64,000 nt of DNA from Owenia fusiformis. Its lineage: Eukaryota > Annelida > Polychaeta > Sabellida > Oweniidae. Under the pieces are notes generated by a model. The model was not told the origin of the DNA. It did not search any database and saw only the letters and a program-made list of their open reading frames with translations. The DNA lies in NCBI GenBank assembly GCA_903813345.2, contig CAIIXF020000010.1, positions 21,401,181 to 21,465,180 of the forward strand, read 5' to 3'. Below, one piece after another: positions 6,482 to 55,805 of the stretch (its first letter is position 1; the number at the start of each line of letters is the position of its first letter). The translations under genes and the position numbers were made by a program.

Positions 6482-6488
6482 ATGGCGG
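6482..6488 (+). CDS. PDCD7: PDCD7 exon 1 (coding part, 7 nt)
   Basis: ATGGCGG followed by the strong donor gtaagt. The phase-1 G joins GT of exon 2 to give Met-Ala-Gly-Gln-Pro-Trp. It is chosen because exon 2 is open upstream of its first internal Met and needs a phase-1 start exon. The tiny length keeps confidence moderate. Confidence 0.65.
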
Positions 6489-9400
6489 GTAAGTGTGTTT
6501 GTAAATTCCAGTAAATTCCTTACAATCAGTCTATAAAAGCTGATTTTATGATCCTTTCAACATAGGGACGTAAATTCTTATGTATGGATACTGTAATCCC
6601 ATAATATAACAGACAGAAAGTATAGGTATCAGCGCCAGTTTGAATAGATCTACCCCCTTTATAAAATTGAAGCTCATTTTGATTTTTCATTTTGGAACTT
6701 TTCACAGGCACCACAATCCCACAGTGATCAATCTTCAGCATTCTATTATATTTGATGGTGCTGACTATGCTGTATCCCCAAACTGAAAGCAAAGCAGATG
6801 TTCATGAACTCAAACAGACACACACATGCGCCAATATCCCAACCTTTTGGTCACTGAAAGCAAAGCCTTGTATTAGCTCCTACTATTTTTTTCATGGCCT
6901 GAGTTCGTCGCTAACATGCTAAATATAAGAGTTAGCTGACGTTTGGGAGTCTGACTTACCTTCTAAAGGTTAGAACCCGAATCTTAATGAAACCATATCA
7001 CCTTTGTTCCGTCAACCATGGAGCATTTGCCACAACATCCAAGAGGTAAATCATTGACCGTGAAAATGAATGATTTCCTTGTAATTTCCGGAAGTTACAA
7101 TACGAAAAATTACCGAACATATGTGAAAACCGAATATTTGTTCGTTGTTTTCACGATTTACAGGTTCGTTTGTTCTCCAATGTTTTGGTCTAAATTATAA
7201 AGCATCACCAACAGGTCTTACTCTATTAATCGACTAATACAGCAGACGGCTCATATTTCTACGTAGCATTTCGTTCAGACCAATAGTGGGAGTGTAGATC
7301 ACGCAGTTTTGTTCGTTGCGTACTTCACTTGAAATTGGTAATTTTAAATATTGGCTACTTCACTTAGCTTGGCGGATGTAGAACATTGCTTAAATATTCT
7401 TTTAATTTTCACACCAGACATGCTTGGTTGACACGTCAACAAAGTAAAGTTCAAGGGTCAATGCGTTATTTCATGATAACTACAACGCCTTCCCGGAAGT
7501 CAACATTGATGAAAAAGTCGGAAAAGCATTTACACTAATTTCTATCAAATGCTGTGTTTATGCATCATCATCGACGCAACAAAGGTGATATGGTTTCATT
7601 AAGATTCGGGTTCTAACCTTTAGAAGGTAAGTCAGACTCCCAAACATCAGCTAACTCTTATATTTAGCATGTTAGCGACGAACTCAGGCCATGAAAAAAA
7701 TAGTAGTCCTTCAAGAAAGCCTTATATTAGACAGAACATCTGCTTTGCTTTCAGTGTGGGGATACTGGCGCCTGTGTATAGGCTTTCTTGACTAACATAA
7801 GGCTTTTAGTAGTGTTGGGACTCGTGTGAATTATATTACTCGAGTAGAGGCTCTTGAACACTCGATTTATTCGTGATTAAAATAAATTATTTTGGAAAAA
7901 AGTTCAGAAAAACTTTCTTTGGAAAGTTTCAAACTTTCACTTCTGGTAGCAATGTTTTCAAGTGTTCTCAGCTCAACCTACATGTACCTTGAATAACTCC
8001 AACATGCTCATCAAATTATTCAAATAGAATAACTCAACACACTTAATATGTTCTTGTTTTGCATTGAAAAGTAAAAAATCTAGAAATTTATGCTAATTGG
8101 TTTGACTTACTTAAAGCTGGACATCGCTCCAAAACGCAATATGTTGACATATATTGTTTTTACATTTTTAAGCTCTAATATAAAGTTTATGTAAATAAAA
8201 ATTGTTTTTTTCTGCGTTATATCAAAGAACAATCATTTAGTTAAAAAAAATAAAAAGGCGATTGCGGGATTCGAACCCGTGCCTCCCGCGTGCTAAGCGA
8301 GAATTGTACCCCTAGACCACCGTCTTCTAATGAATGTTGGAAGTAATTAAACGCTACTTATTTTGAATGCTATGATTCGGAAGTGACGTCACGTTCTTCA
8401 TTTAGAAACTTTTCCAAAATCATATCGTCGGCGCCGATCGAAGCAATTCAATGAATAATCTTTGAAATGACACATTTATCGTAAGTATTTCTACACAAGA
8501 TTTGCCCCATTTGTTCATCATTCTATTATCTTTCATTAGGCTCAAAATGATAAAGTTCACCCCCGAAACAACCCAAGATTGTGTTTCGGAGCGCAGTCCA
8601 GCTTTAAACATTGCTTTGCACATGCGCAACCAGATGTAATAAATAAAAACAAACATGCATGAGAAAGCTTATTGTATTTGATTTATCCAAACTTAAGGTA
8701 TCAAACTATAATACTATATATTAGGAAGGCATCATTGATAAACATTGTACAGAAATGTTGTACATTGGATCTGTTTTTTTTTACGTAAATTGCGTTTGAA
8801 AGGTGGGTAAATCACATGTTCTTCATACTTTTTTTCATTTTTTTCAATTTGAATAAGAATTTACCAATCGATGAATCATATTTACAGGGTTTGGCGAGTA
8901 GTATTCGAGTCCACGAGTCAATCGTTGCTCCACTAGCTTTAAGTGACCACAAGGTGGGGAAGCTGGCGCCTATGGAACTTTCTTCCAGTTTTCATTCCAT
9001 TTAATTTTCAGTTCTATTGATTGGACAATGTATGAGTTTGTCAAAACAGGAAAATGCATCCTCATTTACGAGATCTCCAGAAAGTTAACTTTTCATGGCC
9101 TGGGCCCTTATACAATCGATGATCCTGATTGTGACGTTTGTCCGAATCCCAATAGTCCGAATCACAATCTTAATCCCAATCGTAATCCAAATCCCATTGG
9201 TCATACTATACGCCTTGTATTTTTCGCTTGCGATTTAGTTTCGCGCTTTTCGCGACTGTGTTAAAATCGCGAAAATTAATCGTCGCGAATTTCGCCAATT
9301 AAAGGCTGAGGTGCAACATGCCGTTGACTAAGACCTAGAAATTGTAAATCTTATCAAAATATGACATTGGATAGGTCTTATTACTGTAGATAAGGTAAAT

Positions 9401-12400
9401 TAGTTTATAGATCTTGAGGATCCAGAGAATAATGGAATTTAAAACTTTGAAATCCGCGAAATTTAATGGCCGCGAAATTGGTATTTCTCAAAATTCGCGA
9501 AATTAAAACTCGCGGAAAATACCGGGCGTACAGTAATTCAAATCATCTGAGTCCCAATGGTCGGAAGCCCAATTGTCCTAACACCATTAGTCATATAGTC
9601 CTGCCCAATTATGCTTTAATTTAAATATCACTATAAAACTGCAAGAAATTGTGAACATGGAATTATCGCAAAATACACAAAAATAGATGGTTTTGAAGTT
9701 TTGCGAATTTGATATTAATGGATGGACCAATGAAAATTTGTCCTTGCCATATGCATTTCGTGAATGGGAGATGTTAATAACCATGTTTTCATCTATCACG
9801 CATTAGTCTAGTAGCGCATATAATCATTGAAATTGAGACAACCGAATTATTTTAGTATTTGTTGTTGCATAACTTGCATTTGATAAATTTTCAGGTCAAC
9901 CATGGAGATACCCAGGACAAAGAAATGCAGATTTAAACAATGGCATGCCATATGGTGGGAGAGGGGCTCATGGGACTCATCGACCCAGACTACAAGTGAA
10001 TCATGACCAATATCAAATGCCTCATCATCAAGAACTTCAACATGAACCATATCAGTCTCCACATTTTCAACTTAGAGGATCATTTATGAGACAGCGTCCA
10101 CCATCACAAATGCCCCCATTTCAAGGACCACCACCTCGTTTTCAATATTCTAATCCACCACCTCCTCCAGTTTTGAATTCACAAAATTACCAACAGTTCA
10201 CTCCTGATAGTAATGGACCAAACCAGCCAACAGGGATGATAGCACCCAATCGTATGAATGTTGAGCCAGAGAAGCAGGTTGAGAAGACTCAAAGGGACAC
10301 AGATGAAGAGTGGGTGAAAGTATGGCTGAATGACAAATCAAGAGAGTCAAATGAAACAATACAAAAGCCAAAAGTGACAGTAAGTTGACAAACAGAATGA
10401 ATGAAGCTTCTAAATCAGCTTGTCTAGAGGTCCATTCTTAAAGCTTCACTAGTTATTAATATTTTATAATTTTTTACTTAATTCATTTTGCTGTGGTTTT
10501 ATAATATTGATTGGCAAATAAGCTTCATAGATGTCAATTCAAGATATTTTAAAAATGGTAAATACTGCGCTGGTAAAACCTAGAGACAGACATTTTTTTA
10601 AACTTTTTCTATTACATGTATAGTGAAAATATTTTCGAGAAGCAAGGATTTCTAATATGTGTATAGTGTATATTACAATGTACTTTACTGTAGACGATGT
10701 ACATGTATTTGTGTGTACATGCAACATGTTTGAATTGAAATGTTCCATGGAGGTGCATGAGGGATCCTTCAAAAACTCTCAACCAAACAGTTCCTTTTAT
10801 AAGACCACCCCATTTATTTTCAGATCTCTCAATTCCACAGCCTTATACAGGAATACAGGGATCTCATAAAGTCCATGAAACAGAAATGTGATGATTTAAA
10901 AACTATAACAAATGAAGAACTTTGGAACATAGTCTTCAAAGAGATAGAATTGATGAAGGTAGAATATCTTTAGTTCAGTAGTGCAATTATAAAGCTTGGT
11001 TTGATTCAAAATTTAGGCAATCAAATCTGTAGTGAACATTGTGTTCAACTTTTATTATCTTAAATTATTTGTTAGAGAATAGGCCAGGTGTATACATGTA
11101 CAGTACTTCATATATGTATACATTTTAGGTTAGCTATGTATCTACATGTACCTCATATATTTATGTATTTCAGGTACGGCTAGGTGAGCTCCAGGTAACG
11201 CTAAATGATAAAGATCTCCTGAAAGAAGTGCAGCAAAAGATGAAATGGAGACAGAACAAAAGGGTAAAGTACACTGTCTATTCTTTTGTCCATATTATTG
11301 TTATGTCACCACCAGCAACTTTTTGTGGATAGTGTTTGGCGGTTGTTGTTTGGAGTCTATAACAGCCTCTGTAACAAATGGTTGTTGGTGTATGTAACAA
11401 ATGGCAGGTGGTGAAATTTTGCATGTTAATTCCTTGTTTGAACTTATTTTGTCTATATTTATAAGTAACATTGTAGTTTCTCTAACACCCTACATATATT
11501 CTTTTTAAAAAGGAACGCCTCCGGAGAAAAAGGAGAGAAGAATATCTTGCTGAATGTAAGTTACAAGAAGAACGAAATCTTGTACACCAGCAGATAGATA
11601 GATGGCAGCAAATTATTATCCAGAAAAATAAAGACGTCGAAAAAGTATGTTATTGCCTATTTTTGTCTTTATTTCCTAGTTCATAGCATACACACACGGA
11701 AAATGCCCTGAATAACAAGATATCAAAAAGTATACATATTAAGTGAAAATCATTTGTTGAATTATCCAATATGAGATACATGTAGGGGTTGGATGTTGGT
11801 AAAAGAGGTCTGAATTGTCGGTAAAATGAGGTAACGTTATGTATATAATTTATGTGATCAGATATTGTTATATTTAATGATTCAATACAGGCTGACACAG
11901 TTTACCAATTTATACTTAAAATAGTTTAATTTTGATGTTCTTTCTTTTACTTATGTTTGTTACTGTTAATCCAGGAGAAGGAATTAAAGGCGACTGCAGA
12001 CAAAATATTAAATGAGGTCAGACGAAAGATAAATGATGTCACAAAATGTCTTGATATTCTGAAAGCTTTAAACACACTGAGAACTGTGAGGCAAGACAGT
12101 GCATCTAGGCGAGGTATGTTGTTATTAAATGAGACAATGAATGTAGGTGTCAAATGTCTATTGAATATTAAAATCAATATTAGGTATGAGATAGATAAGA
12201 GTGACTTTTGGGATACACTTTTTACATTTTCTTGAATATTGAAAGGAAATTCTAAATGAAAAATTGTGAAAAAATCAGATGAAATGCTTTGTCAGACCTG
12301 CATTAAAGCTAAGAGAGGCTTGATATCTATCTCTATTCTTGGATTGAGAGATATTTCTGAAGGATTAACACCAGATATAAAATAATTGCCTGTTGGGTGA

Positions 12401-15400
12401 TACATGCAACAGTAGCTTTGTTTGAAAATTGATTTTATTCATATTTGAATAACAGATCTTAGATTAATCAACTTCTCTTTTCCAGGCCAAAATATCAGTT
12501 CAAGTAAAAGTAGGGACAAAGAGTTTGCCTCTGCTTCTAGTGAGCTCACAACAATGCTGAATCAGCAGAAAGCCATGTACAATGAGGAGAAAAAGACATT
12601 GGAGGTAATATACTTCTTGATCATTGTAACAATAACTGATGAGATAAGTTTTGTCCTAAGCCTTGACATAACCTTAACTTTATTTTTCAAGCCAAATGTT
12701 CAATAATACCAATCACCACACAAAAGGCATACAATCACAATAAAATACATGTATTCACTGTACAATGTACATATTTCTTGAAAATTAATAAATTTTTCCC
12801 TACTTTTTACTTTCAAAAAGTTTTAACATTACATTACACAAATCCACATGTTTAATTTAAAATTGCAATTTTATCCTAAATTAGAATGCAGGTTAACTAA
12901 TTTTTTTTATCAGAAAATACAGCATTATCAGATTTAGCAATATGCTTCAATATTATAATGACCCTACAACGATAAATCAATGTACATGAAGGTGATGCTA
13001 GAGACAGAACAAGAAGAAACCAAGGAAAGAGAGAAGGCTGAGAAACAACTGAAGATGGACAATATCAGGAAGAAACATGAGAAGCGGATTCTAGAGTGGC
13101 TTTTTGGAAAAGGATGTGAGTATATATGTTCTGTCATATCAAATTCAACTTATAGAAAACATGTAGCATAATCAGTAAAAATTCTTTTACTTTTAGAACA
13201 GTCGTATATTTCGCATATTTCCACACAAAGGTTATGATAATGATAATTCGCTACATGAACATATTTTATTTTCAGATAAATTGGAATCTCACCCAGAAAA
13301 ATTAAAGAAGCATTTTAGAAAGCATGTTGCTCCTACAATTATTGAGAATGTTCCGTTGCTAGATATGCTTCCATGTATAACATGCCTCTCAGCAAATGAT
13401 AAGGTTAGTCTCAAAATTGTTCTCATGTGTAATCTGTTTTATTTGAAGTATAATATCAATATTTCTGTGATAATATCAAATGCAAAAGCAAAGCTTTCAT
13501 GAAGGCCAAGAAAATGTTATTAGGCTGGAGCTGTGTGAGGTGAACACCTAATGGTGTTCATTTGCTTACTCCAATGGTGCTTCTAGAATAATGTACAGAA
13601 ACGTGTAACTTAGAAATATGTTAAAAAGAGAAAATCTGGCATAGAAACATTTACTGATTGTCCATCCAATATGGCTCTTTGGCAAAGCCCAGGACACCAT
13701 TGCTTGGCCCAATTGATATTGTTGCTGACTTTTGTATTTAGGAACAACTGAAATCCATCTATTGGCAGAATGGGCAGGCTGAGGCCATGGTCCTTTTCTT
13801 CGACATGCTTTTACAGCGATATGATTGGATGGACCAGCTGGGAGCAGCTTTAAGATATCCTGCTGTTAATCAGACATATCTAGCTGACATGCTTAACCCA
13901 AGTGGACAGGGTGAGACAATAAACATTTTATTTATTTAGGAAAGTATTATATACAATTATTGACCTCTCCAGAGGTTTACTGTCAAAATTATATCCCGAG
14001 ACTGTAAACCGAGACCGTCGGTTTACAGTCTCGGGATATAATTTTGACAGTAAACCTCTGGAGAGGTCTATAATTGTTTTGTTAGTCCGAAGAATATCTT
14101 ATATTTTTCTGACCCTTGAAGTTGACTTGAAGTTGGATCCAGACCCTCGAGACGTTCATGTTGTATTTCAGTATATCGGCAGTAAGTTCACTCAATGGAG
14201 TCAAATTACTCTCCTGGGCGAAGTCCACTAAAAGCTTTGTACAAAGTTTTAGATTTTTCTTCGTATTTTGACTGTCTTTACTCTCTAAGAGACTAATAAT
14301 ATCCTCATCTTCAACATTTTTGGAACGGCTAGTGCTAGCGGCGGCCATTTTATCGTCTGATAATGACGTCATTTTAGTGGAATGCTGGGAATATTATTCA
14401 CCGGCAATGCATTGCGCGGTGTACAGTTAAAATTATTCACCGCTCGTTGACCAATCAAAATCGAGTATTTCAACTGAGGTACTAACTATAAATATTGTAA
14501 TGTATGTGACTCAGTAGTCTAATGTATTAGGACTTAGTCCTACCAAATTATCGCATCTTACTTCAAGACATGTACAGTATACGAGTATTATATGTTTTCA
14601 CTTGACATTCTGTTAGTTATCACCATCCATTGTCAAAAACCATGCTTAGTTACCTGACTACAAGTCTCTTGTAAATATCTTTCTATCTGGTTACAGGTTG
14701 GGATCCTATGTTATCGTTCCAAGCATTCTATGACCAGGCTGACAATAGTGTGGAAGACCTTGTGCGCATAAGGTATAACCTACATACAGTATTTTATGTT
14801 ACAATCATTATCCCATCGAACGAAGTTCGGAGGGATATAGGGAACGCCTCCGTCCGTCCGTCCGTCCGTCCGTCTGCATAACGCCCCATCATAATATCGA
14901 AACGGGGATATATCAGTATTTTAAACAGTTTAAATACTAATATGAATATTACATTTTTATGTAAAAAATTTTTTAAGTGAACATTCCTTCCAAAAGATTT
15001 TTTCATTTCCTCTGAATGTTTAACTACACGATCACGGAGACCCTTCTCATACTTTATTTCCCTGGTGTTGGTGGTTTGGAGTGACTAGATAGTTTGCACT
15101 TTTAATGCTCTACTTGCTTTTCCTGCTTTTCCTCCTTTTCCTCTTTGCATGCTTAATCCCCTTTGTGGTTTGCACTTTCACCTTTTATTGACTTTGTGTA
15201 CCAATATTGATGTGGCTGAGTTGGAGTAATTTGGTAAGTGGTCCGAAAATGACTTTAAACTATACAAAATTTTTCCGGTTTATACACATGGTGTATAGTC
15301 TAAATAGTCCATTAATCCCATACCCTAACAGGTTAAACAATAATTTTTTTAAATAAAATAAATATACATATGATTTTTATCCCATCGAACGAAGTTCGGA

Positions 15401-18400
15401 GGGATATAGGGAACGCCTCCGTCCGTAATGAACTAAAGACCAAGAATAGGAAAAAGAAACCAACAAAATTCTGTAAAATACTATTTGAAAACAAAGCAGT
15501 AGAAGTAATCAACATTGCAAATATCTTAAGAGATGAAGAAGTGATCAAGACAATACCTTCAAGTATCAAAAATAAGGAACCACCAGGGATTGTCTATATA
15601 TACACAAAACCAATAAGGAATAAATTTTTCAACTATAGTGAGATTACAGAAAGTATCGACGAAGGCAACAATACAGGAGAATGTGATTGTAATACATCTG
15701 AATTTAAGGATGAAGACCATGGTCACGTCATAACAGGAAATCTGAAGATTATACAAAATTCAAAATTGAGAAAGCTATTTAGTAAAGGTCCTGGCTATAG
15801 AGAAAAACGAAACATTAACTTCAGGAAAGCAAAAGAAGAAATAAAGAAAGGAATAGATGAATATGCAATAAGTTGGACAAAAAATGAAAAAGTTTCAAAA
15901 GTATACTTAAATGAATGGAAAAATACTGTAATGGAAAAGGTTAAACAAAAGATTGAGTTACTTCAAAATACAAAATTTAGACATATTAAAAATCCAAAGC
16001 AGACACTAAAGGACCATAATGCTATGGACGAACTCAATCAACTCAAGGAAAAATATGCCATTGTACCTATTGATAAGGCAGCAAATAATATTGGGTTTAT
16101 GTGCAAACAATACTACATAAAGAAGATTAAAGAGGAAATTGGGAGTGACACCTATCAAAGGATAGAAGATAAAGGAGAAGAAGATATAGTGGAGGAAATC
16201 AAAGAGACAATGAAAACAAAATTCAAGATTGAACCGGGAGAAGAACAAAATATTATACCAAGGATTCATCTTACAATTAAAATGCATAAACAGCCAATTA
16301 AATTTAGATATATCATTGGCTCTAAGAAAAGTTCTGTAAAACCAGCTGCCAAAAAACTGACCAAAATTCTTAAACTAGTGCAATATACTAACAAAAGATA
16401 CTGTGAGAAGATTAAGGATTATACAGGTGCCAATAGGATGTGGATCAGTGACAATAACCAAAATATGTTAGATAACATTAAAAGTGTAAAAGAGAACCCC
16501 CGATAAGGAGAGCTTTTTAGAAGGACATTGCTTTTTTATTCTGGACGTGATCATCATGGAAATTTGACACCTTTTTAGAAATGAGGTGAATTTTGACATC
16601 CTGAAATATTATATCTGGATGATTAAAACTTCCGTTTCTAGAACGTTTTTTGTAAAACGATGAAATTCAATGTTCTATTTTGACCGTTACTTTCGATAAA
16701 GTGCAATACGTTTCCTTCAACTGTACATGCGAAATAAAATATGTCTAAGAAGGATTGTGATGCAAAGTCTTAGTTTCGTAAAGGAATTGAGGGGCGTGGT
16801 ACCAGAAGTATGCTTAAAGAATTTTCTAAGAAGTTGTTCCACTATGGTCGTCATTCTCATTAGAAGAGTCTCGGAATTTTATACAAGTCATAGATAGAGG
16901 GCGTTTCACAGATCAAATAAGTTCATCTTTGGATAAAACTTGGTCATTTTTGAAAATCATTCAAATGCCCAAAATTAGATGTCTCTCCTGGACAATCAGT
17001 AATGTCACAGTAAAAGATTATCCTGTGCTATTTTGGTTTCAGGTACATAACAGCTGGATATAGAACTGATGTCTTAGAGGAGTGGGACACATATATCTCC
17101 CGCTGTATATTCCCCGGAAATGTTTTTTGTTCAGTGTTGAAATAGTAAAGACTGTCCGAATATCTTGCTATAGAATGAATGCAGCAGACGTAGAATATTT
17201 CATTGCCAAATGTTTATGAATTTTTCGAAAATAATGAAAATGAGAACACTGAAATCTTCACTTATGAAACCGAATGCTCGTTTTTGAATATGGGGTATAC
17301 CCCTAGGGAAATATGATATCCTTTATCATATTTCCCGAGGGATATACCCCATATACAAAACCTCCCATGACATAACCCTTATGCATTGTGGTTAAAAAAT
17401 AAATAATGATAGTCAGGGTCGGGATTTGAACACGAACCTTTCAGAAAATTAAAGGGAAGACAATTTCCAACGCGCTATCATATGCGCCAAACGATCATTG
17501 TATTATGATTTATGTCTTTAACTATTCACGTTTGAATTAGGTACACGATTGAAAAGCGTATGAAGTCTACATTTTTAAAATCAAAGAATTCGAGCGTTCC
17601 TACTTTAACCTCAAGACTGTTGGCATCAGGCTTCTTATCTTAGCAATTCAACCAGTTGTTAGAGTAGATAGTCCAGGGTGTAAAGCAAAACTAGAGCGTT
17701 CTCAAATCTAGTAGAAACATATAGTTTTTCAATACATACAAACATTGATTGGTTGTTGTATTTTTCTTCTTTGAAAAAGTATATTTCAAGATAAATTAAT
17801 TATTTATTTTGATATATTTATTTGCCAAAAATTAACGTTGGCACATGTTTTATTATCCAATGCGTCGACATGCATTGTATAAAATATGAATGAAATAAAA
17901 AAAATCATAAATAATTTCTTGAAAACAACGTTACATACAAATAATCATAATCATGATTTTCGGGGCTGGTACAATTTGGTTAAAAAGCGTTTCAAATAAT
18001 ATAAAATAGTCTTGCCCCATTATCACTCGGGATCAGCTCGATTACGCTGATGACCGTTTCGGTAACATAATGTCGGAACCTCGAAGGAACGATTTTTCTT
18101 TTTTCCTTATTCCACGCGTTGTTGGCAAAATTCCCATGATATTTTTTATAAAAAACGTGCGTTAGTATCATATGTTTAAAAAATGTACATGTTTGCGAAC
18201 AGATAGTTAGTTCAGAGGACAACAGAACCATGATTCAATACCTCATTTAAGTTACTTAAACGGGATGGGTTAGATATGCAGATCCGTTTACGTAACTTAA
18301 GTGGTGTTTTAAATCGACGATTCTGTAGTCTTCTGAACTAATTGTTCGCAAAGGTGTACATTTTCTTAAAGACACACATTTTTTATAAAAATATCATGGG

Positions 18401-24400: not shown

Positions 24401-27400
24401 AGCATTTGTAAAAAATAAGTAATAAACGAAATATGCTATGAAATAAAGTTGACATGAGCTGTTTAGAAGTAAAAAGTAAATCAAAAATATGTAAATCATG
24501 CTTTCCATATAGATGTTATTCGCATTTGTAAAAGGAAATGAATGAAAAATGCCATGACACGACGCTTAAAGAGGGTCAACATTTGTTGAAAATCAGACAT
24601 GAACAAAGTATACCAATGCATTTGTAAAAACTGGGGTATGAAAAAATAAGCAAAAAAATGAAGAAGGAATTGGCTTTTTTATAAAATGAAATTAACAAAA
24701 TATATCCTCCATAACATTTGAGAGGAATTAGCATTTGTAGAAAATAAGGAATGAAAAATACCATTTATAAGATGAAGGAATAAACAAAATATATCATGTA
24801 TAACATTTGAGTGTAATTGGCACTTGTAGAAAATAAGGATTGAAAAATACTATTTATAAAATGAAGGAATTAACGAAATAAATCATGTACAACATTTGAG
24901 TGGAATTAGCATTTGTAGAAAATAAGGAATAAGAAATACCTTTTATAAAATGGAGGCCGGAATAAACAAAACATACCATGTATAACATTTGAGTGGAATT
25001 AGCATTTGTAGAAAATAAGGAATCAAAATTATCATTTATGAAATGGAGGAATAAACAAAATATATATTGTATATCATTTGAATGGAATAAGCGTTTGTCG
25101 AAAAACAGGAATTAAAAATACCATTTACAAAATAAAGGAATAAACAAAATACATCATGTATAACATGTGAGTGGAATTAGCATTTGTAAAAAAGGAATGA
25201 AAAATATCATATATAAAAATGAAGGAATAAAAAAATACATCATGTAAAACATTTGAGTGGAATTAGCATTTGTAGAAAAAAGGAATAAAAATACCATTTA
25301 TAAAATGAAGGAACAAACAAAATATATAATGTACAACATTTGAGTGGAATTAGCATTTGTAGAAAATAAGGAATGAAAATACCATTTATAAAATGAAGGA
25401 ATAAACAAAACATATCATGTATAACATTTAAGTGGGATTAGCTTTTGTAGAAATAAGGAATTAAAAATACCATTCATAAAATGAAGAAATAAACAAAATA
25501 TATCATGTATAACATTTGAGTGGAATAAGCATTTTTATAAAATAAGGAATGAAAAATACCATTTATAAAATGAAGAAATAAACAAAATATATCATGTATA
25601 ACATTTGAGTGGAATTAGCACTTATAGAAAATAAGGAATGAAAATACCATTTATAAAATGAAGGAATAAACAAAATATAACATGTACAACATTTGAGTGG
25701 AATTAGCATTTGTAGAAAATAAGGATAAAAAAATCCCATTCATTGAATGAAGGAATAAACAAAATATATCACGTATAACATTAAAGTGGAATTAGCATTC
25801 GTAGAAAATAATGATTAAAAAATAATGTAGAATACCAAATTACTGGGATTAGCATAAGTAGAATATAAGGGTTGTTAAAAGTATGTGAAGTGTATATATG
25901 AAAACTGTTGGATCTACTGTAAAAAAGTTTGCCCGAAAGTAAGTATGAATTTTATGACATGTTAAATATCTAGTTTGATCCTGTCAATTTGATCCAAAAA
26001 TATCTTCATGTGATTGGAACTTGTATGTTTCGTGTGTCCTACATGGAAGAAAGATCAGTATTTAAATTCATATATTAATCAGTATGCTCAGAATTAAGAT
26101 AATGTGATTATAAGTTTTGATTGTGCATCACAATTTGCAGTACAAGTTCAATGTCTTGAGATACATTTTGTTATACTGATATGCAATTTCTAAAAAGATA
26201 ATAGGAAATCCTTTCAAGGATAATATACTGGTAACATCAATGGTGTCAGAGTCTTCTATTGTATGTTAATAAAATAAGGAGAGCGAATTAAATCATGTAT
26301 TATTGACAATTTTGACAGATCAACACTGGTGTCATCACTGATAGTGATAGTGATGGGGATAGCGATGACAATACGCTGCCACCAATAGACATGGACGCAC
26401 TCGGTGAATCCAGCAGTAGTGGCAGTAACCAAGACGACTCGTTCGAGGTGTGTAGACTTAGCATAAGCATTTAATATGAAGGAATACACAAAATATTATA
26501 TCATGTATAACATTTGAGTGGAATTAGCATTTGTAGAAAATAAGGAATGAAAAATACCATTCATAAAATGAAGGAATAAACAAAATATATCATGTATAAC
26601 ATTTGAGTGGAATTAGCATTTGTAGAAAATAAGGAATGAAAAATACCATTTATAAAATGAAGGAATAAACAAAACATATCATGTATAACATTTGAGTGGA
26701 ATTAGCATTTGTAGAAAATAAGGAATGAAAAATACCATTTATAAAATGAAGGAATAAACAAAATATTTCATGTAGAACGATTAAGTGGAATAAGCACTTG
26801 TAGAAAATAAAGAAAGAAAAATACCATTTATAAAATGGGAGAATAAACAAGATATACCATGTATAACATTTGAGTGGAATTAGCATTTGTAGAAACTAAG
26901 GAATGAAAAATACCATTTATAAAATGAAGGAATAAACAAAACATAATCATGTATAACATTTAAGTGGAATTAGCATTTGTAGGAGATAAGGAATGTAAAA
27001 TACCACTTATAAAATGAAGGAATAAACAAAATATATCATGTATAACAGTTGAGTGGAATTAGCACTTATAGAAAATAAGGAATGAAAAATACCATTTATA
27101 AAATGAAGGAATAAACAAATATTTCATGTAGAACAATTGAGTGGAATTAGCACTTGTAGAAAATAAGGAACGGAAAATACCATTTATAAAATGAAGGAAT
27201 AAACAAAATATATCATGTAGAACAATTAAGTGGAATTAGCACTTGTATATAATAAGGAATGAAAATACCATTTATAAAATGAAGGAATAAACAAAATATA
27301 TCATGAAGAACAAATAAGTGGAATTAGCACTTGTAGAAAATAAAGAAAAAAAAACATTTATAAAATGTTGGAACGCTAGACCACTTGGTTGTGGAGGAAC

Positions 27401-39400: not shown

Positions 39401-41540
39401 AAAACGTTAAACCCACCTATGCCCAGTCACAAGCCTGAGGAACCTGCTTTTATATCTAATGTGGATTTTTATCTTACCAATCATGACTTAAATATTAATA
39501 TGGGTATTTCCTATAATTAATATATACTGGATTTTAACTTACCAAATATGACTTCAATATTAATATGGGTTTAAACCTATAATGTATTAAATACTGGATA
39601 TGACAAGTAAATAAAATCAATTATAATCTACCTATATGATGTAGATATCCAAATGTTGGTCTGAATTTATCTTTGTGGAAAGATTGTATGCTTCAGTTGC
39701 TCTTTAACAAAACATGTGGGACAGTGTATCTATATATTACAAGATGTCCGTCCGTCCGTCCGTCCGTCCGTCCGTCCGTCCGGGCAATAACTCAAATACC
39801 GTTGGCCCGATTTTGTTCATATTTTGTACACATATTCCCTATGGGAGTAGAAGTTCTGCTAAAAAGCCGATTTTCAAAATGGCCACTCATTTCAAAATGG
39901 CGGCCATTTTAGTGCCGATTTTACAGTAATTTAGGTGCACTATGTAAAACTGTGATAGCATTATGTTTTAAATGTAAAAAAATTATATAGGACATTGATA
40001 AAGCTAGAAATGTAGAAATTAAAATAGCACATGGCAGCCATCTTGAAAAATGGCGGCCTTTACTCGTTATTTTACGATTTTTGCTGTAACTCAAGAAGTA
40101 TTGGAGCGATTTTGTTCATATTTGGTATGTGAATACTATAAGCATGGCTCACTGTCTAATGACACTTTTGGTTGGAGGAGGCCATTTTGAAAATTTGCCG
40201 CCATTTTGAAAAATGGTCGCCATTTTAACATATTTTACTTTAACTCAAAAAGTAGTGGAGCGATTTTGTTCATATTTGGTTTGTGAATACTATAAGCATG
40301 GCACACTGTCTAATGACATTTTTGGTAAAAGGCGTCCATTTTGAAAAATGGCCGCCATTCTAACGTATTTTACTATAACTTGAAAAGTAGTGGAGCGATT
40401 TTGTTCATATTTGGTATGTGAATAATATAAGCATGGCACACTGTCTCATGACACTTTTGGTAGAAGGCAGCCATTTTGAAAAATGGCCACCATTTTAAAG
40501 TATTTTACTGTAACTCGAAAAGTAGTGGAGCGATTTTGTTCATATTTGGCATGTGAATACTATAAAAAAGCATATTACTTCTTCTGATGACAACTTTCTT
40601 ATGTGTGTTATTTTATGATATTTGCTATATATTTCGTTTGTAAAAATGCCAGCTATTTCTGTTCGATGGGATTCGCTACGCTAATACTATAAAAAAAGCA
40701 TATTACTTCTTCTGATGACAAAAAATGGAATTTGAAAAATGGCCGCCATTTAAATGTATTTTACTCGGCCTTTACTCGTTATTTTACGATTTTTGCTGTA
40801 ACTTGAAAAGTAGTGGAGCGATTTTGTTCATGTTTGGTATTCGAATACTATTAGCATGCCACACTGTCTTATGACACTTTTGGTAGAAGGCGGCCATTTT
40901 GAAAAATGGCCACCATTTTAAAGTATTTTACTATAACTCGAAAAGTAGTGGAGCGATTTTGTTCATATTTGGCATGTGAATACTATAAAAAAGCATATTA
41001 CTTCTTCTGATGACAACTTTCTTATGTGTGCATGTTATTTTATGATATTTGCTATATATTTCGTTTGTAAAAATGCCAGCTATTTCTGTTCGATGGGATT
41101 CGCTACGCTTTGGCGTTGCCGTTGTTCTGGTTTACTCTAAAGTTGTCATCAACTTTTTTGTGGACAGTGGTCGATGGTTGGTGTTCGGTGGTCACAGTAT
41201 GTACATGGAAGTGCAGGTGGTGACATTTCGCATGTCAACGCCTTGTTCATATTGATAGAATATATAACTTTTCCAGAAAAAATGTGATCATGTTTGGTGA
41301 GAAACTTTGAGGAACCAAGTGATACACGCCCTGTACGTTTCGTTCACCAACAGTATATGTTATAATGTGCTGTTCTTTTCAGCATATACGAGGTATATAT
41401 GTTTTATTTGCAGGAGGGAGTGGGACATGTACATTGTTGATGGTGCTCGTGTCTCTGGATCAGGAATTCCTTCATCATGGGTTAATCCAGAGGAACCATC
41501 TTCCAATATATGGGCCTCTGCATTGATGGACTCTAAATAA
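6482..41540 (+). CDS. PDCD7: PDCD7 orthologue (U11/U12 di-snRNP 59-kDa protein) carrying an inserted CARD-like domain; 12 exons
   Basis: A component of the minor (U12-type) spliceosome: in vertebrates this nuclear protein sits in the U11/U12 di-snRNP and contacts U11/U12-65K. Exons: 6482-6488, 9895-10379, 10824-10958, 11174-11263, 11513-11644, 11975-12113, 12486-12604, 12992-13115, 13276-13403, 13742-13910, 14697-14772, 41414-41540. All introns are GT-AG and all junctions keep frame, giving about 576 aa. Visible parts are a Pro/Gln/His-rich N-terminus (residues 1 to about 130), a charged coiled-coil core (about 165-410) containing EIDRW-like and ELKA.AD..L.EVR.K signatures, a CARD-like insert (about 411-509), and the conserved C-terminus (WDMYIV ... 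W...NIWASAL). Removing the insert gives about 477 aa, near the human length of 485. Family identification rests on matching several separate conserved blocks in order. Intron 11 is swollen to 26.6 kb by transposons. Confidence 0.9.
6771..7765. mobile_element. Non-autonomous TIR element, about 1.0 kb, in PDCD7 intron 1
   Basis: Inverted ends of about 230 bp: TGTATCCCCAAACTGAAAGC on the left and CTTTCAGTGTGGGGATA on the right. Inner mirrored blocks include TTTTTTTCATGGCCTGAG and GGTTAGAACCCGAATCTTAA. No ORF of note, so it is probably a MITE-scale DNA transposon. Confidence 0.85.
8257..8328 (-). tRNA. tRNA-like gene or pseudogene (Pro-type body, anticodon loop reads AGC)
   Basis: The minus strand shows an A-box-like TGGTCTAGGGGTA, an anticodon arm (CTCGC / GCGGG) with loop TTAGCAC, and a B box GGTTCGAATCC. 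It is followed at once by TTTTT, a Pol III terminator. D and T arms look like tRNA-Pro while the loop would read Ala codons. The acceptor stem does not pair well, so it may be a pseudogene or SINE head rather than a working tRNA. Confidence 0.5.
9204..9535. mobile_element. CGCGAAA-rich MITE in PDCD7 intron 1
   Basis: Imperfect inverted ends (TACTATACGCCTTGTATTTT on the left; AAAATACCGGGCGTACAGTA on the right). The interior is rich in CGCGAAA/TTTCGCG motifs. This resembles a MITE type common in marine invertebrate genomes. The family name is not asserted. Confidence 0.75.
9895..10379 (+). CDS. PDCD7: PDCD7 exon 2, Pro/Gln-rich N-terminus
   Basis: Acceptor ttttcag, donor ACA|gtaagt, entering in phase 1 and leaving in phase 0. 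It encodes about 160 residues of low complexity, rich in Pro, Gln, His and Asn (PSQMPPFQGPPPRFQ, PPPPP), then a more charged end (DTDEEWVKVWL). A proline-rich N-terminus is typical of PDCD7. Confidence 0.9.
10824..10958 (+). CDS. PDCD7: PDCD7 exon 3
   Basis: 45 codons, phase 0 at both ends (acceptor ttttcag, donor ATGAAG|gtagaa). Helical, with FHSLIQEYRDLIKSMKQK and ELWNIVFKEIELMK. This corresponds to the start of the family's helical domain. Confidence 0.88.
11174..11263 (+). CDS. PDCD7: PDCD7 exon 4
   Basis: 30 codons, phase 0 at both ends (acceptor gtatttcag, donor AGG|gtaaag). Encodes VRLGELQVTL followed by a basic helix (KMKWRQNKR). Confidence 0.87.
11300..11460. repeat. Diverged dispersed-repeat fragment in PDCD7 intron 4
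   Basis: Shares interrupted similarity with 41140-41255: CAACTTTTTGTGGA, GCAGGTGGTGAAATTTTGCA, then TTCCTTGTTTGAA. That sequence is the tail of the large intron 11 retroelement. It is therefore probably an old 3' fragment of the same family. Confidence 0.5.
11513..11644 (+). CDS. PDCD7: PDCD7 exon 5, Arg/Glu-rich coiled coil
   Basis: 44 codons, phase 0 at both ends (acceptor ctttttaaaaag, donor AAA|gtatgt). Encodes ERLRRKRREEYL and HQQIDRWQQ. The basic run followed by a Q/E-IDRW block is a recognisable PDCD7 signature. Confidence 0.9.
11975..12113 (+). CDS. PDCD7: PDCD7 exon 6, most conserved core block
   Basis: Acceptor ttaatccag, donor CGAG|gtatgt, phase 0 to 1. Encodes ELKATADKILNEVRRK, then CLDILKALNTLRTVR. 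This is the strongest match to vertebrate PDCD7, where the same positions read as an ELKAAAD/EVRKK/DILRALEKLR pattern. Confidence 0.93.
12486..12604 (+). CDS. PDCD7: PDCD7 exon 7
   Basis: Acceptor cttttccag, donor GAG|gtaata, phase 1 to 0. A Ser-rich linker (ISSSKSRDKEF) is followed by a helix (LNQQKAMYNEEKKTLE) that leads into the VMLE block of exon 8. Confidence 0.88.
12992..13115 (+). CDS. PDCD7: PDCD7 exon 8 (VMLE-EQEE block)
   Basis: Encodes VMLETEQEETKEREK through ILEWLFGKG, matching the family's VMLEGEQEEE ... KLFG stretch. It ends GGAT|gtgagt in phase 1, where the CARD cassette begins. The acceptor acatgaag is weak, with no pyrimidine tract. It is nevertheless forced: an in-frame TGA lies at 12959-12961 and this is the only AG between that stop and the conserved block. 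Confidence 0.8.
13276..13403 (+). CDS. PDCD7: PDCD7 exon 9, first half of the inserted CARD-like domain
   Basis: Acceptor ttttcag, donor AAG|gttagt, phase 1 to 0. Encodes helices 1-3 of a death-fold domain: LKKHFRKHVAPTII, then VPLLDMLPCITCLSANDK. The pattern L.DMLPCI.CLS..DK is typical of CARDs of the RIG-I/MDA5/MAVS kind and has no counterpart in human PDCD7. Confidence 0.82.
13742..13910 (+). CDS. PDCD7: PDCD7 exon 10, second half of the inserted CARD-like domain
   Basis: Acceptor gtatttag, donor CAGG|gtgaga, phase 0 to 1. Encodes EQLKSIYWQNG, AEAMVLFFDMLLQRYDW, then LGAALRYP and a closing LADML. The order (an E.L....NG turn, a long hydrophobic helix ending in a W/Y, a short ALR helix, a final L-A-D-L helix) matches CARD helices 4-6. 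With exon 9 it forms a symmetric phase 1-1 module of 297 nt. Confidence 0.82.
13954..14077. mobile_element. Near-perfect palindrome of about 124 bp in PDCD7 intron 10
   Basis: The left arm (CAATTATTGACCTCTCCAGA…) is mirrored almost base for base by …GGAGAGGTCTATAATTG, with a few-base centre at GAGACCGTCGG. Cruciform-prone, probably a small foldback or the end of a larger mobile element that includes the adjacent recombinase fragment. Confidence 0.9.
14082..14372 (-). pseudogene. N-terminal fragment resembling a Crypton-type tyrosine recombinase
   Basis: A 96-codon ORF beginning MTSLSDDKMAAASTSRSKN, then DEDIISLLESKDSQNTKK and LLVDFAQESNLTPL. The pattern (acidic start, ESKDSQNTKK, an F-A helix) resembles the N-terminal DNA-binding part of Crypton/DUF3504-like recombinase proteins in invertebrates. 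No catalytic region (Arg...His-x-x-Arg...Tyr) follows, so at most it is a fragment or first exon. Inserted in intron 10 beside a palindrome. Confidence 0.35.
14697..14772 (+). CDS. PDCD7: PDCD7 exon 11
   Basis: Acceptor gttacag, donor ATAAG|gtataa, phase 1 to 2. Encodes GWDPMLSFQAFYDQA and VEDLVRIR. This aligns with the segment of vertebrate PDCD7 that follows directly after the LFG motif (…LLEPFRQYY… ALIQIR), so the CARD is an insertion between two adjacent ancestral blocks. Confidence 0.88.
14811..16496 (+). mobile_element. Retroelement, 5' segment (interrupted by the 20-kb element)
   Basis: Begins with two copies of a terminal motif, ATCCCATCGAACGAAGTTCG, at about 14814 and 15379. Each leads into AGGGAACGCCTCCGTCCG. 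The first is followed by a (TCCG)n run and about 500 bp of non-coding sequence; the second runs straight into the ORF. The arrangement resembles the pseudo-LTR or tandem-copy structure of Penelope-like elements, but the class is uncertain. Confidence 0.7.
14848..14875. repeat. (TCCG)n microsatellite
   Basis: About six to seven perfect CCGT units at the 5' terminal motif of the retroelement; shorter or longer runs recur at 37930-37962 and 39746-39783. Confidence 0.95.
15370..16506 (+). pseudogene. Reverse-transcriptase protein, N-terminal half, interrupted
   Basis: 378 codons without a stop, ending six bases past the left border of the 20-kb insertion. Highly basic. It has the conserved RT 'fingers' features of a family abundant in corals and molluscs: IVPIDKAANNIGFMCKQYYI, then RIHLTIKMHKQPIKFRYII and KPAAKKLTKIL. 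The catalytic motifs are in the other half at 36791-37744. The first codons cover the repeated terminal motif, so the true start may lie at or after about 15430. It works through reverse transcription for element mobility; this copy is split and cannot make one protein unless the insertion is removed. Confidence 0.8.
16497..16610 (+). repeat. Left terminal inverted repeat of the 20-kb element
   Basis: Starts CCCCCGATAAGGAGAGCTTT and continues through GATCATCATGGAAATTTGAC and TTTTTAGAAATGAGGTGAAT. Pairs with 36677-36789. Confidence 0.85.
17043..17145 (+). other. Candidate alternative or decayed PDCD7 terminal exon inside the 20-kb element
   Basis: Acceptor ttttggtttcag is followed by a segment that, in the phase 2 needed after PDCD7 exon 11, reads YITAGYRTDVLEEWDTYIS, then a 14-residue tail and TAG. 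The EEWDTYI string resembles the REWDMYI start of the genuine last exon, and the DNA similarity is local (GAGTGGGACA). No AATAAA is obvious close by. It could be a captured and decayed exon copy, a usable alternative 3' end, or chance. Confidence 0.3.
17286..17355. repeat. Inverted repeat / hairpin, 70 bp
   Basis: GAATATGGGGTATACCCCTA is mirrored by GAGGGATATACCCCATATAC, with AATATGATATCCTTTATCATATT between. A foldback remnant. Confidence 0.85.
17400..17492 (-). repeat. tRNA-like / SINE-head sequence
   Basis: The minus strand reads TGGCGCATATGATAGCGCGT (A-box-like), then GGTTCGTGTTCAAATCCCG (B-box-like) about 45 nt later. Box spacing fits a tRNA-derived sequence, but the anticodon arm is degraded. 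Probably a tRNA pseudogene or SINE relic. Confidence 0.45.
18023..18493. mobile_element. Foldback MITE, about 470 bp
   Basis: Inverted arms: AGCTCGATTACGCTGATGAC on the left and AGCGTAATCGAGCGGATCAC on the right. Mirrored inner blocks include the AACGATTTTTC / TTCCATGATATTTTTTATAA region. Related sequence occurs at 30225-30390 and 33120-33460. The short ORFs here (MGILPTT…) are by-products of the repeat. Confidence 0.85.
19795..19918. repeat. Inverted repeat, about 124 bp
   Basis: ATGATTTGAAGTGCAATACA is mirrored by TGTATTGCACTTCAAATCAT, and inner GGATATATTCTG is mirrored too. A foldback element with non-coding interior. Confidence 0.85.
20212..20310. mobile_element. Short palindromic element, about 100 bp (copy 1 of a family)
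   Basis: ATGCCTGGGTCACATTTGC at the left is mirrored by GCAAATGTGACCAGGGCAT at the right, with GGGCGCCGTAGCGAAAATCG inside. Half-copies recur at 23997-24060 and, inverted, at 33003-33067. Confidence 0.8.
20926..21067. repeat. Inverted repeat, about 140 bp
   Basis: TATATAATGGTTCATTCTGT is mirrored by ACAGAAAGACCCATTATATA, with the mirrored inner core CTCGTTCGCTACGCTCACT. A foldback remnant. Confidence 0.8.
21504..22662. mobile_element. Non-autonomous TIR element, about 1.16 kb
   Basis: Terminal inverted repeat CACGGTGTTATAGCATGACG (26 bp matching) at both ends, with a non-coding interior. Nested in the 20-kb element. Confidence 0.85.
22938..23760. mobile_element. Non-autonomous TIR element, about 0.82 kb
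   Basis: Ends TAGTCCATGGTATGA and, inverted, TAGTCTATGGTATGA, with a further mirrored block GCACACTATAGCGCAGC about 40 bp in. No coding capacity. Confidence 0.85.
23997..24060 (+). repeat. Half copy of the GGGCGCCGTAG short element
   Basis: Nearly identical to 20244-20310: TGAACAAAATACTCAATCGG, then GGGCGCCGTAGAGAAAATC and GCAAATGTGACCAGGGCATA. Confidence 0.8.
24200..25830. repeat. 88-bp minisatellite, block A
   Basis: About 18 units, diverged before 24700 and regular after it. Consensus pieces: AACATTTGAGTGGAATTAGC, ATTTGTAGAAAATAAGGAAT, ACCATTTATAAAATGAAGGA, ATAAACAAAATATATCATGT. Block B (26480-27365) resumes the same unit after a 0.65-kb gap that holds a transposase exon. Confidence 0.95.
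26480..27365. repeat. 88-bp minisatellite, block B
   Basis: About ten units of the block A repeat, same orientation. Several units share the variant AACAATTAAGTGGAATTAGCAC, showing local homogenisation. Confidence 0.95.
28262..28556. repeat. CACACA/ACACTC-rich simple-sequence region
   Basis: Imperfect runs of CACAGACACTCACA type over about 300 bp directly upstream of the zinc-finger exon. The minus-strand ORFs over it (VCVSVCVCVC) are simple-sequence translations. Confidence 0.85.
30225..30390. repeat. Half copy of the 18.0-kb foldback MITE
   Basis: Carries GATCCACTCGATTACGCTGG, ATGTCGGAACGTCGAAGGTA and CCCACGACATTTTTCTAACA in the same order as the left arm of 18023-18493. The 143-codon minus-strand ORF over it comes from the repeat. 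Confidence 0.75.
30772..31547. mobile_element. TIR element, about 776 bp, rich in CGTTC/GTACG motifs
   Basis: Ends TTATCACACCAAACTAGTT and, inverted, AACTAGTTTGGTGTGATAG. The interior is packed with diverged CGTTCGT, GTACGTCC and TTCGTAA words on both strands. Non-coding. Confidence 0.8.
32168..32283. repeat. Hairpin with poly-C and poly-G tracts
   Basis: GTCTTGCTCAAAGAC … GTCTTTTAAGCAAGAC flank a C-run (12 C at 32191-32202) and a G-run (about 32252-32261) that can pair. G-quadruplex or hairpin potential. Probably a foldback remnant. Confidence 0.7.
33003..33067 (-). repeat. Inverted half copy of the GGGCGCCGTAG short element
   Basis: The minus strand reads GAACAAAATACTCAATCGGC, GGGCGCCGTAGTGAAAATCG and AAATGTGACCAAGGCA, matching 20244-20310. 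Confidence 0.8.
33120..33460. repeat. Diverged full copy of the 18.0-kb foldback MITE
   Basis: Left arm words (CATCGAAGATTTAATGATG, GACATTTTTAGCAAAAACGT) are mirrored in the right arm (ACGTTCGTAATAAAAATGTC, ATATTTTGTTACCGAAACGG). More decayed than 18023-18493. Confidence 0.6.
33470..35660. other. Non-coding interior of the 20-kb element
   Basis: No supported gene. Two diverged blocks share CCTTTCGTCCTCCAC followed by about 100 similar bases (34660-34790 and 34850-34980), suggesting an old local duplication. Confidence 0.5.
35665..35835. mobile_element. Foldback element (family copy also at 62285-62405)
   Basis: ATTTGGATTATCTCGAGGCCAATATA is mirrored by TATATTGGCCCAGGGATAAT in the 20-base cores, and the element ends near TTGTTCAATTGG. 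The 62.3-kb copy shares GGATTATGCCGAGGCCAATA and TTGTTCAATTG. Confidence 0.65.
36677..36789 (-). repeat. Right terminal inverted repeat of the 20-kb element
   Basis: Read on the minus strand: CCCCCGATAAGGAGAGCTTT, then ATCATCATGGAATTTTGAC and TTTTTTAGAAATGAGGTGGA. Same order and spacing as the left end, with scattered differences. Confidence 0.85.
36791..37744 (+). pseudogene. Reverse-transcriptase protein, C-terminal catalytic half
   Basis: Open from the insertion border to TGA at 37742-37744 (317 codons). Contains RT motif A (YDFSTLYT, about 36827-36850), motif B-like GIPMG (37076-37090) and motif C FIDDL (37208-37222), so the catalytic aspartates are present. Then come family-typical TTFLDIQMKI, TTKLYDKRENFNF and GIFISQIIR. 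No endonuclease domain (GIY-YIG or APE type) is visible. The protein would copy element RNA into DNA; here it is parted from its N-terminal half by 20.3 kb. Relationship to Penelope-like elements is plausible but unproven. Confidence 0.82.
38240..38900. repeat. Tandem array of about 130-bp units, block 1 (GCCGCCATTTT-rich)
   Basis: About five units with GAAAAATGGCCGCCATTTTA, ACTCGAAAAGTAGTGGAGCG, TTTGTTCATATTTGGTATGT and GCATGGCACACTGTC. The first element is a palindrome around GGCC. Confidence 0.92.
39746..39783. repeat. (TCCG)n microsatellite, longest copy
   Basis: About nine GTCC units directly before GGGCAATAACTCAAATACC. Confidence 0.95.
40075..41000. repeat. Tandem array of about 130-bp units, block 2
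   Basis: About six to seven units of the same repeat as block 1, interrupted near 40600-40780 by a copy of the element end motif. Confidence 0.92.
41414..41540 (+). CDS. PDCD7: PDCD7 exon 12, conserved C-terminus and stop
   Basis: Acceptor ttatttgcag, entered in phase 2. Encodes REWDMYIV, a loop, SSWVNPEEP and NIWASALMDSK, then TAA at 41538-41540. It matches the family end (DWDQYLV ... GWVLPPLPSNDIWATAVK). It lies 26.6 kb from exon 11, which is unusual next to the compact other introns downstream of exon 2. Confidence 0.92.
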
Positions 41541-53889: not shown

Positions 53890-54149
53890 CATGAGACAGT
53901 TAAAGCCTACCTTTGATCTAGGCCCGTACAGTTTTCTTGAAAATGCTGAGGGCCAATCAAATCAATTATAGAGATCAACTAACCAATGAGATCATTTTAG
54001 ATGAACATCTTGATGGACATCCTTATCTCACCCTAATTGTGGTCATAAAACTAAATGAGTTAATATCACTTGAGACACTAAGAAAGTGACACTACAATAT
54101 TCTGTAACACTTGTAATGTTTCAACATTAATGGACCTCACATTAGATGT

Positions 54150-55805
54150 GATGAGCATCAGAATGCCATTTAGGCATCGTGGGAAATGGTCTTCAGTATT
54201 ATCATCGTTCAATTCTAGTTGAAGGCAGAACGATGTGATAAGTATCAGAATGCCATTTAGGCATCGTGGGAAATGGTCTTCAGTATTATCATCGTTCAAT
54301 TCTAGTTGAAGGCAGAACGATGTGATGAGTATCAGAATGCCATTTAGGCATCGTGGGAAATGGTCTTCAGTATTATCATCGTTCAATTCTAGTTGAAGGC
54401 AGAACGATGTAATGAGTATCAGAATGCCATTTAGGCATCGTGGGAAATGGTCTTCAGTATTATTATCGTTCAATTCTAGTTGAAGGCAGAACGATGTGAT
54501 GAGTATCAGAATGCCATTTAGGCATCGTGGGAAATGGTCTTCAGTATTATTATCGTTCAATTCTAGTTGAAGGTTGAACGGTGTAATGAGTATCAGAATG
54601 CCATTTAGGCATCGTGGGAAATGGTCTTCAGTATTATTATCGTTCAATTCTAGTTGAAGGCAGAACGATGTGATGAGTATCAGAATGCCATTTAGGCATC
54701 GTGGGAAATGGTCTTCAGTATCATCATGTTCAATTCTAGTTGAAGGAACGATGTGATGAGTATCAGAATGTCATTTAGGCATCGTGGGAAATGGTCTTCA
54801 GTATTATTATCGTTCAATTCTAGTTGAAGGCAGAACGATGTGATGAGTATCAGAATGCCATTTAGGCATCGTGGGAAATGGTCTTCAGTATTATTATCGT
54901 TCAATTCTAGTTGAAGGTTGAACGGTGTAATGAGTATCAGAATGCCATTTAGGCATCGTGGGAAATGGTCTTCAGTATCAACATGTTCAATTCTAGTTGA
55001 AGGAACGATGTGATGAGTATCAGAAGGCCATTTAGGCATCGTGGGAAATGGTCTTCAGTATCATCATGTTCAATTCTAGTTGAAGGAACGATGTGATGAG
55101 TATCAGAATGCCATTTAGGCATCGTGGGAAATGGTCTTCGGTATCATCATGTTCAATTCTAGTTGAAGGAACGATGTGATGAGTATCAGAAGGCCATTTA
55201 GGCATCATTGAAAATGGTCTTCAGTATTATCATCGTTCAATTCTGGTTGAAGGCAGAACGATATGATGAGTATCAGAATGCCATTTAGGCATCGTGGAAA
55301 ATGGTCTTCAGTATTATCATCGTTCAATTCTAGTTGAAGGAACGATGTGATGAGTATCAGAATGCCATTTAGGCATCGTGGGAAATGGTCTTCAGTATTA
55401 TCATCGTTCAATTCTAGTTGAAGGCAGAACGAAGTAATGAGGATCAGAATGCCATTTAGGCATCGTGGAAAATGGTCTTCAGTATTATCATCGTTCAATT
55501 CTAGTTGAAGGCAGAACGATGTAATGAGGATCAGAATGCCATTTAGGCATCGTGGGAAATGGTCTTCAGTATTATCATCGTTCAATTCTAGTTGAAGGCA
55601 GAACGATGTAATGAGGATCAGAATGCCATTTAGGCATCGTGGGAAATGGTCTTCAACTATTATCATCGTTCAATTCTAGTTGAAGGCAGAACGATGTGTT
55701 GAGTATCAGAATGCCATTTAGGCATCGTGGGAAATGGTTTTCAGTATTATCATCGTTCAATTCTAGTTGAAGGAACGATGTGATGAGTATCAGAATGCCA
55801 TTTGA
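54150..55805. repeat. 87-bp minisatellite, about 19 copies
   Basis: Unit pieces: AGTATCAGAATGCCATTTAG, GCATCGTGGGAAATGGTCTT, CAGTATTATCATCGTTCAAT, TCTAGTTGAAGGCAGAACGA. At 87 bp (29 codons) the minus strand stays open across many units (TEDHFPRCLNGILILITSF). Units with the shorter GAAGGAACGATG variant break the frame. ATCATCGTT and AACGATGTGAT can pair, giving each unit a hairpin. Confidence 0.97.

Follow-up and report, generated by a model that had tools for sequence, protein, structure and literature searches.

We found that the PDCD7 gene of the annelid Owenia fusiformis very probably encodes a CARD domain, which is carried by two adjacent exons within the coding sequence of an otherwise recognizable PDCD7 protein. 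(PDCD7 is the U11-59K protein of the U11/U12 di-snRNP, and its name refers to apoptosis.) The gene lies in a window of 64,000 nt (G000:C10:21401181-21465180), by which we mean the whole stretch of DNA that we analysed. Contig C10 has a length of 37,456,424 bases and the contig of the deposited protein (P0001, see below) one of 37,473,021, so they may come from different versions of the assembly. We will describe the gene and the evidence that the inserted segment is a CARD, and then consider how the domain might have arrived in PDCD7 and what it might do there.

The 12-exon chain (Table 1) translates to a protein that is identical, at 576 of 576 residues, to a deposited O. fusiformis protein (P0001). 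The record for this 576-aa protein is titled "unnamed protein product", and its database labels are PF16021 (PDCD7) and PF16739 (CARD_2), so the combination of PDCD7 with CARD_2 was already visible in public data. We assume that P0001 derives from the published Owenia annotation, which, according to an excerpt of its description, used Portcullis splice junctions (from RNA-seq) together with Mikado, Augustus, and PASA (PMC9977687). The coordinates of exons 9 and 10 in the original prediction were exact: both exons have AG/GT borders, are flanked in frame by PDCD7 exons, and together code for residues 411-509. The same prediction had put PDCD7 without its 99-residue insert at 477 aa, and the 576-aa total bears this out. 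Exon 11 starts with (G)WDPMLSFQAFYDQ, directly after the CARD exons, and is separated from exon 12 by an intron of 26.6 kb. Another exon (17043-17145) was considered as the last exon of PDCD7 and is ruled out by P0001; the true last exon is given in Table 1. Pfam scores of the full protein were computed with the chain that ends in 17043-17145, and the insert is unaffected by this.

Table 1. Exons of PDCD7 in the window (positions counted within the window) and of a second Owenia CARD_2 gene (positions on contig C10)
Feature	Coordinates	Strand	Evidence
PDCD7 exon 1, coding part, with start codon, 7 nt, phase out 1	6482..6488	+	12-exon translation identical to P0001
PDCD7 exon 2, proline-rich N-terminus, phase 1 to 0	9895..10379	+	12-exon translation identical to P0001
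PDCD7 exon 3	10824..10958	+	12-exon translation; PF16021 match starts at residue 163
PDCD7 exon 4	11174..11263	+	12-exon translation identical to P0001
PDCD7 exon 5	11513..11644	+	12-exon translation identical to P0001
PDCD7 exon 6	11975..12113	+	12-exon translation; PF16021 match in whole-genome search
PDCD7 exon 7	12486..12604	+	12-exon translation identical to P0001
PDCD7 exon 8, C-terminal EWLFGKG, phase out 1	12992..13115	+	12-exon translation identical to P0001
PDCD7 exon 9, first half of probable CARD, residues 411-453 (...LPCITCLSANDK), phase 1 to 0	13276..13403	+	Translation, Pfam, PDB search
PDCD7 exon 10, second half of probable CARD, residues 454-509 (EQLKSIYWQNGQ...LADMLNPSGQ), phase 0 to 1	13742..13910	+	Translation, Pfam
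PDCD7 exon 11, (G)WDPMLSFQAFYDQADNSVEDLVRI, phase 1 to 2	14697..14772	+	Match to human PDCD7 (426 onwards) from residue 516
PDCD7 exon 12, last, with stop, RREWDMYIVDGARVSGSGIPSSWVNPEEPSSNIWASALMDSK	41414..41540	+	12-exon translation; PF16021 positions 267-306
Second Owenia CARD_2 gene (L001/L006/L007)	G000:C10:18157573-18157458 + 18155339-18155186	-	Exons joined

The original prediction described the insert as a CARD of about 99 residues in the style of RIG-I, MDA5, and MAVS, and two kinds of sequence comparison support this. First, the insert passes the gathering score of the Pfam family CARD_2 (28.2 bits): the domain scores 32.0 bits within the whole protein, and 33.5 bits when the insert is searched by itself. 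Further Pfam matches of the insert were far under their cut-offs (DUF1744 at 13.7 bits and DNA_pol3_alpha at 13.3 bits), and the reversed insert matched 0 Pfam families at E <= 10. The CARD_2 assignment depends on the two exons being joined, since exon 10 alone reached 18.8 bits, which is under the 28.2-bit cut-off, and exon 9 alone had no Pfam match. Second, when the insert was compared to the PDB with phmmer, nine MAVS sequences came out on top (E from 9.8e-6 to 4.2e-4), followed by one further row at E 1.4. Residues 435-492 of P0001 align without gaps to residues 21-78 of MAVS. The CARD of MAVS is N-terminal, whereas the Owenia CARD is internal (411-509 of 576) and is followed by a C-terminus that aligns to PDCD7. 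Among 29 candidates that were scored as relatives of the insert, only P0001 itself was found at E <= 1.

AlphaFold placed helices at residues 417-434, 442-445, 450-462, 466-490, and 497-503 of the insert, with low pLDDT (ten-residue block means of 39-64), and these tentatively placed helices would fit the six-helix fold of a CARD if two of the helices have run together. The alignment used by AlphaFold had 21 sequences, just one of which includes the insert, and we attribute the low confidence to the lack of any alignable relative among the sequences found. Structure comparisons of the full model (Foldseek, VIA-align), in which the insert is of low confidence, gave listed rows that were taken up by the coiled coil, with no CARD among them. 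The low-confidence model and the structural rows are what might be expected if the insert were not a death fold at all, and were instead a chance helical segment that mimics CARD_2. This seems exceedingly improbable, however, as the Pfam cut-off was passed, MAVS was matched in an independent search, the reversed control was empty, and the position of the intron within the insert is common to two other CARD_2 genes of Owenia (see below).

Against PF16021, the Owenia protein scores 129.3 bits (gathering cut-off 27). In a search for relatives of PDCD7, in which the 8000 candidates that share the most words were scored, 21 proteins were returned, including the one from Owenia. In each of the 20 others, just 14-21 residues separate LFG from a conserved Y, versus 112 in Owenia. 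In other words, PDCD7 elsewhere has a short linker, whereas the Owenia protein is longer by about 95 residues between LFG and F..YY, a stretch that corresponds to CARD_2 and is seen in 1 of the 21 proteins. This agrees with the original prediction that the insert lies between the LFG block and the C-terminal block, at a joint that all 20 of the other returned proteins bridge with a short linker. That prediction had pointed to bivalves, gastropods, and brachiopods, and the host is an annelid; among the 21 rows there is no annelid name besides Owenia, and P0004, P0012, P0016, P0018, and P0021 have no usable organism name.

The helical part and the C-terminal block of the Owenia protein both align to human PDCD7 (8r7n_D) in two stretches (E 2.6e-28). 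Residues 426-482 of the human protein align to residues 516-572 of the Owenia protein, and the conserved C-terminal block is kept. A search of the whole 498-Mb assembly with PF16021 gave 2 matches, both at this locus (in exons 6 and 12), so the gene appears to be the sole copy of PDCD7 in the Owenia genome. This search treats exons one at a time and overlooked most of those in PDCD7 itself, so its failure to detect a second copy falls short of proof that there is none.

Helminth annotations are known to contain artefactual fusions of gene models (PMC12964723), and exons 9 and 10 could conceivably be a separate CARD gene that is nested in PDCD7 and was merged with it by gene predictors. We consider this to be highly unlikely. 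The CARD exons share the strand of the PDCD7 exons on either side of them, their phases match at both ends, and the introns before and between them (introns 8 and 9) are just 160 and 338 bp long. Furthermore, the frame at 13197-13502, which is open from intron 8 through into exon 9, contains no Met before residue 441 (LLDML), which is within the CARD, so a CARD-only gene would require an extra, unseen start exon.

How might a CARD have been placed into PDCD7? The phases of the CARD exons are 1-0-1, with phase 1 at both outer ends and phase 0 between exons 9 and 10; because both outer phases are 1, the two-exon cassette fits the frame and can be removed without a frameshift. A search of the whole genome with CARD_2 gave 5 matches at E <= 0.001 (L001-L005); this search also runs exon by exon and is incomplete, as it missed the CARD in our window and another one on contig C259. 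The best match (L001) is the second half of a split CARD on contig C10, the chromosome that also carries PDCD7, at a distance of 3.26 Mb, with the first half 2.1 kb upstream. Once the halves are joined (Table 1), this CARD scores 79 bits against CARD_2 and matches MDA5, MAVS, and RIG-I in the PDB. Its internal intron lies at DK/EQ in phase 0, like that of PDCD7 (...CLTKTDK/EQITAEQ versus ...CLSANDK/EQLKSIY), and its outer phases, from splice sites read by eye, are 1 and 1, again like those of the CARD exons in PDCD7. The two CARDs are identical at 25 of 91 aligned positions (27%, 43.9 bits); in a shuffle control, 237 of 500 comparisons gave any match, the best at 20.0 bits. In contrast to the gene in our window, no part of PDCD7 was seen in the gene on C10.

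A weak match of exon 10 to contig C259 (E 0.12) was the only one in its own genome besides itself. With the exons on C259 joined by eye, the gene there scores 53.2 bits against CARD_2 and has the same phase-0 intron as PDCD7 along with one more. In the phmmer alignment, the equivalent of the DK/EQ intron point in MAVS is between residues 39 and 40, which we take to be where the human MAVS gene has an intron. The remaining matches (L002-L005) are unsplit, with the matched part of the CARD in one open frame, and L002 is better matched by the classical CARD profile (55.8 bits) than by CARD_2 (32.6 bits).

Several of these other CARD genes have features of their own. Downstream of the CARD exons on C10 is a long frame (L006 6892-8757 on the minus strand, or 18151891-18153756) that by eye looks partly TIR-like; it had no significant match in Pfam or the PDB, and we take it to be the next exon of the split CARD_2 gene. 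L002 (1471-2694, plus strand) has an N-terminal CARD and then a Ras-family GTPase domain in one Owenia frame, a combination that seems unusual. L003, L004, and L005, all on contig C3, have CARD-like starts followed by what by eye are NHL-like repeats, and perhaps form a small Owenia family.

The common phase-0 intron site and the matching outer phases in the C10 gene point to exon shuffling, which is the simplest reading of the origin of the CARD in PDCD7. A two-exon CARD of the MAVS/RLR type with phase-1 ends would have entered a phase-1 intron of PDCD7, and so would have come to lie where the long helical part meets the conserved C-terminal block. We also considered transposition as the carrier of the CARD exons and set it aside: there are no flanking direct repeats (the only direct pair is 14 nt long and both copies are in intron 10), and base composition is no different (GC3 of 0.39 in the insert and 0.37 in exons 1-8). 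Grafts of death-fold domains are described, in part of PMC8998645, for RIG-I-like receptors of lophotrochozoans, the same animal group as Owenia. The recipients in that account are immune receptors, whereas the recipient in Owenia is a subunit of the minor spliceosome.

Exons 9 and 10 might also be used as an optional in-frame pair, so that PDCD7 is made with or without the CARD depending on tissue or state. Omitting them (297 nt) keeps the frame and, by arithmetic, leaves 477 residues, and the alignment to PF16021 reaches profile position 270 without these exons versus 245 with them. However, phase symmetry alone is already expected from shuffling, and a single deposited form was returned (P0001, with 1 member sequence). 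On balance we think that regulated skipping is unlikely; it is compatible with a docking role for the CARD, and both can hold together.

The top Foldseek row for the Owenia model was human PDCD7 in the U11 snRNP (E 3.3e-4). The human chains cover residues 171-391 (221 residues, 8r7n_D) and 169-378 (210 residues, 8y6o_Z), as derived from the aligned range and the chain length, and in the alignment the CARD is inserted at the equivalent of human 413/426. Because the modelled part of human PDCD7 ends before this point, the CARD is probably attached through a flexible tail, and because the joint is outside of the modelled part, PDCD7 is probably still able to build the U11 snRNP. The CARD would then be exposed on this tail, where it would probably be free to dock.

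We compared the insert to MAVS at nine positions that we take to be interface positions of the MAVS CARD, using the phmmer alignment. Four of the nine are kept or similar (E26, R43, R65, and W68 of MAVS are D440, K457, R479, and W482 in Owenia) and five are altered (D23, R37, R41, W56, and R64 are P437, N451, Q455, V470, and Q478). Such a pattern would be compatible with a CARD that binds without building filaments, or with a passenger. By the latter we mean a real, folded CARD that is tolerated in the flexible tail of PDCD7 and has no role in signalling. The five altered positions agree with this, as does the rarity of the insert (no other PDCD7 protein among the 20 returned has a CARD), and an insertion outside of the modelled part of PDCD7 may cost little. 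A passenger is nevertheless somewhat unlikely, since the CARD scores above the family cut-off, its frame is open, and its splice sites are intact, whereas an unselected domain of 99 residues should decay; this argument is drawn from one sequence.

The window has other features besides the CARD exons. The first half of the CARD has an antisense tblastn match at 12165-12076 (minus strand, E 1e-4; 0 of 200 shuffles fell below 1e-3), which spans the last part of PDCD7 exon 6, a stretch conserved in the sense direction, and part of intron 6. For this reason we set it aside as chance. Within intron 11, 15337-16503 and 36770-37741 (both on the plus strand) look by eye like two halves of one Penelope-like reverse transcriptase, about 20 kb apart. 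The second half matches RVT_1 at 16.8 bits, which is below the cut-off, and the first half did not match it; Penelope-like insertions in this intron could explain why the last exon of PDCD7 is so distant. The same intron has arrays of an 89-bp satellite at 24678-25824 (13.0 copies) and 26472-27367 (10.1 copies). Intron 10 has a MITE-like inverted repeat at 13953-14077, 42 bp past exon 10, with 60-bp arms that are 98% complementary and a 5-nt spacer. Beside it is a 103-aa frame (14082-14393, minus strand) that by eye resembles the beginning of a protein from a Crypton-type element and had only sub-threshold matches in Pfam, including a phage-integrase SAM-like domain at 13.8 bits. A tRNA-Ala (AGC) is predicted in intron 1 (8255-8325, minus strand), and a search with Rfam at gathering scores found nothing in the 64,000-nt window. 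Finally, frames at 54081-54770 and 55208-55669 (minus strand) are built from a repeated unit of about 29 residues (TEDHFPRCLNGILILITSFCLQLELNDDN) and are probably a translated tandem repeat.

As for minor splicing in Owenia, its genome encodes two U12 snRNAs (127.9 and 126.4 bits). A U12-type intron within the PDCD7 gene itself was rejected: all 11 introns have GT-AG borders, and by eye none of them has a 5' splice site that resembles the U12 consensus. In human cell lines, PDCD7 co-precipitates U2AF1, U2AF2, and SF3B1, and an excerpt of the same study presents it as a partner of U2AF in exon bridging, with more exon skipping near minor introns upon knock-down (PMC8034651). A passage in a study of a virus protein refers to PDCD7 as a mediator of apoptosis (PMC8045253). 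In oyster, according to part of another study, the CARDs of RIG-I bind a MAVS-like protein (PMC5557890), so the docking of CARDs exists in the wider group.

From the probable exposure of the CARD, these reports on PDCD7 in splicing and apoptosis, and CARD docking in oyster, we infer that docking to a CARD partner is the likeliest role of the domain. PDCD7 would keep building the U11 snRNP while the CARD, hanging outside on the flexible tail, would most likely serve as the docking site for another CARD protein of the worm, such as an adaptor or receptor of the MAVS/RLR type. CARD signalling might then recruit or sequester the minor spliceosome, or else PDCD7 from a free pool. Both CARD-CARD binding and any effect on splicing or cell death are predictions from sequence. 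We would give the account as a whole, with a CARD in PDCD7 that has a docking role, about an even chance of being correct. A more specific version is that an activated CARD of the MAVS/RLR type captures PDCD7, so that signals of infection or death would directly switch U12-type splicing, or else the spliceosome would gate the signal; this strikes us as quite unlikely.

Among the matches listed in a search of the PDCD7 literature, mostly outside subscription papers, none described an immune docking domain within a subunit of the minor spliceosome. We classify the CARD-containing PDCD7 of Owenia as a new combination of known domains and not as a new kind of system. Even without any signalling, it would be a clean case of a two-exon domain that was shuffled into an snRNP protein, in which the match between the intron phases can still be seen. 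More broadly, a CARD in PDCD7 hints at a possible connection of splicing with the signalling of virus infection or cell death, as the original prediction had proposed for U12-type splicing. If the CARD binds, then antiviral or death signals in Owenia would be able to act, by a direct physical route, on how a defined set of genes is spliced, and partners of PDCD7 elsewhere could be predicted from this natural fusion.
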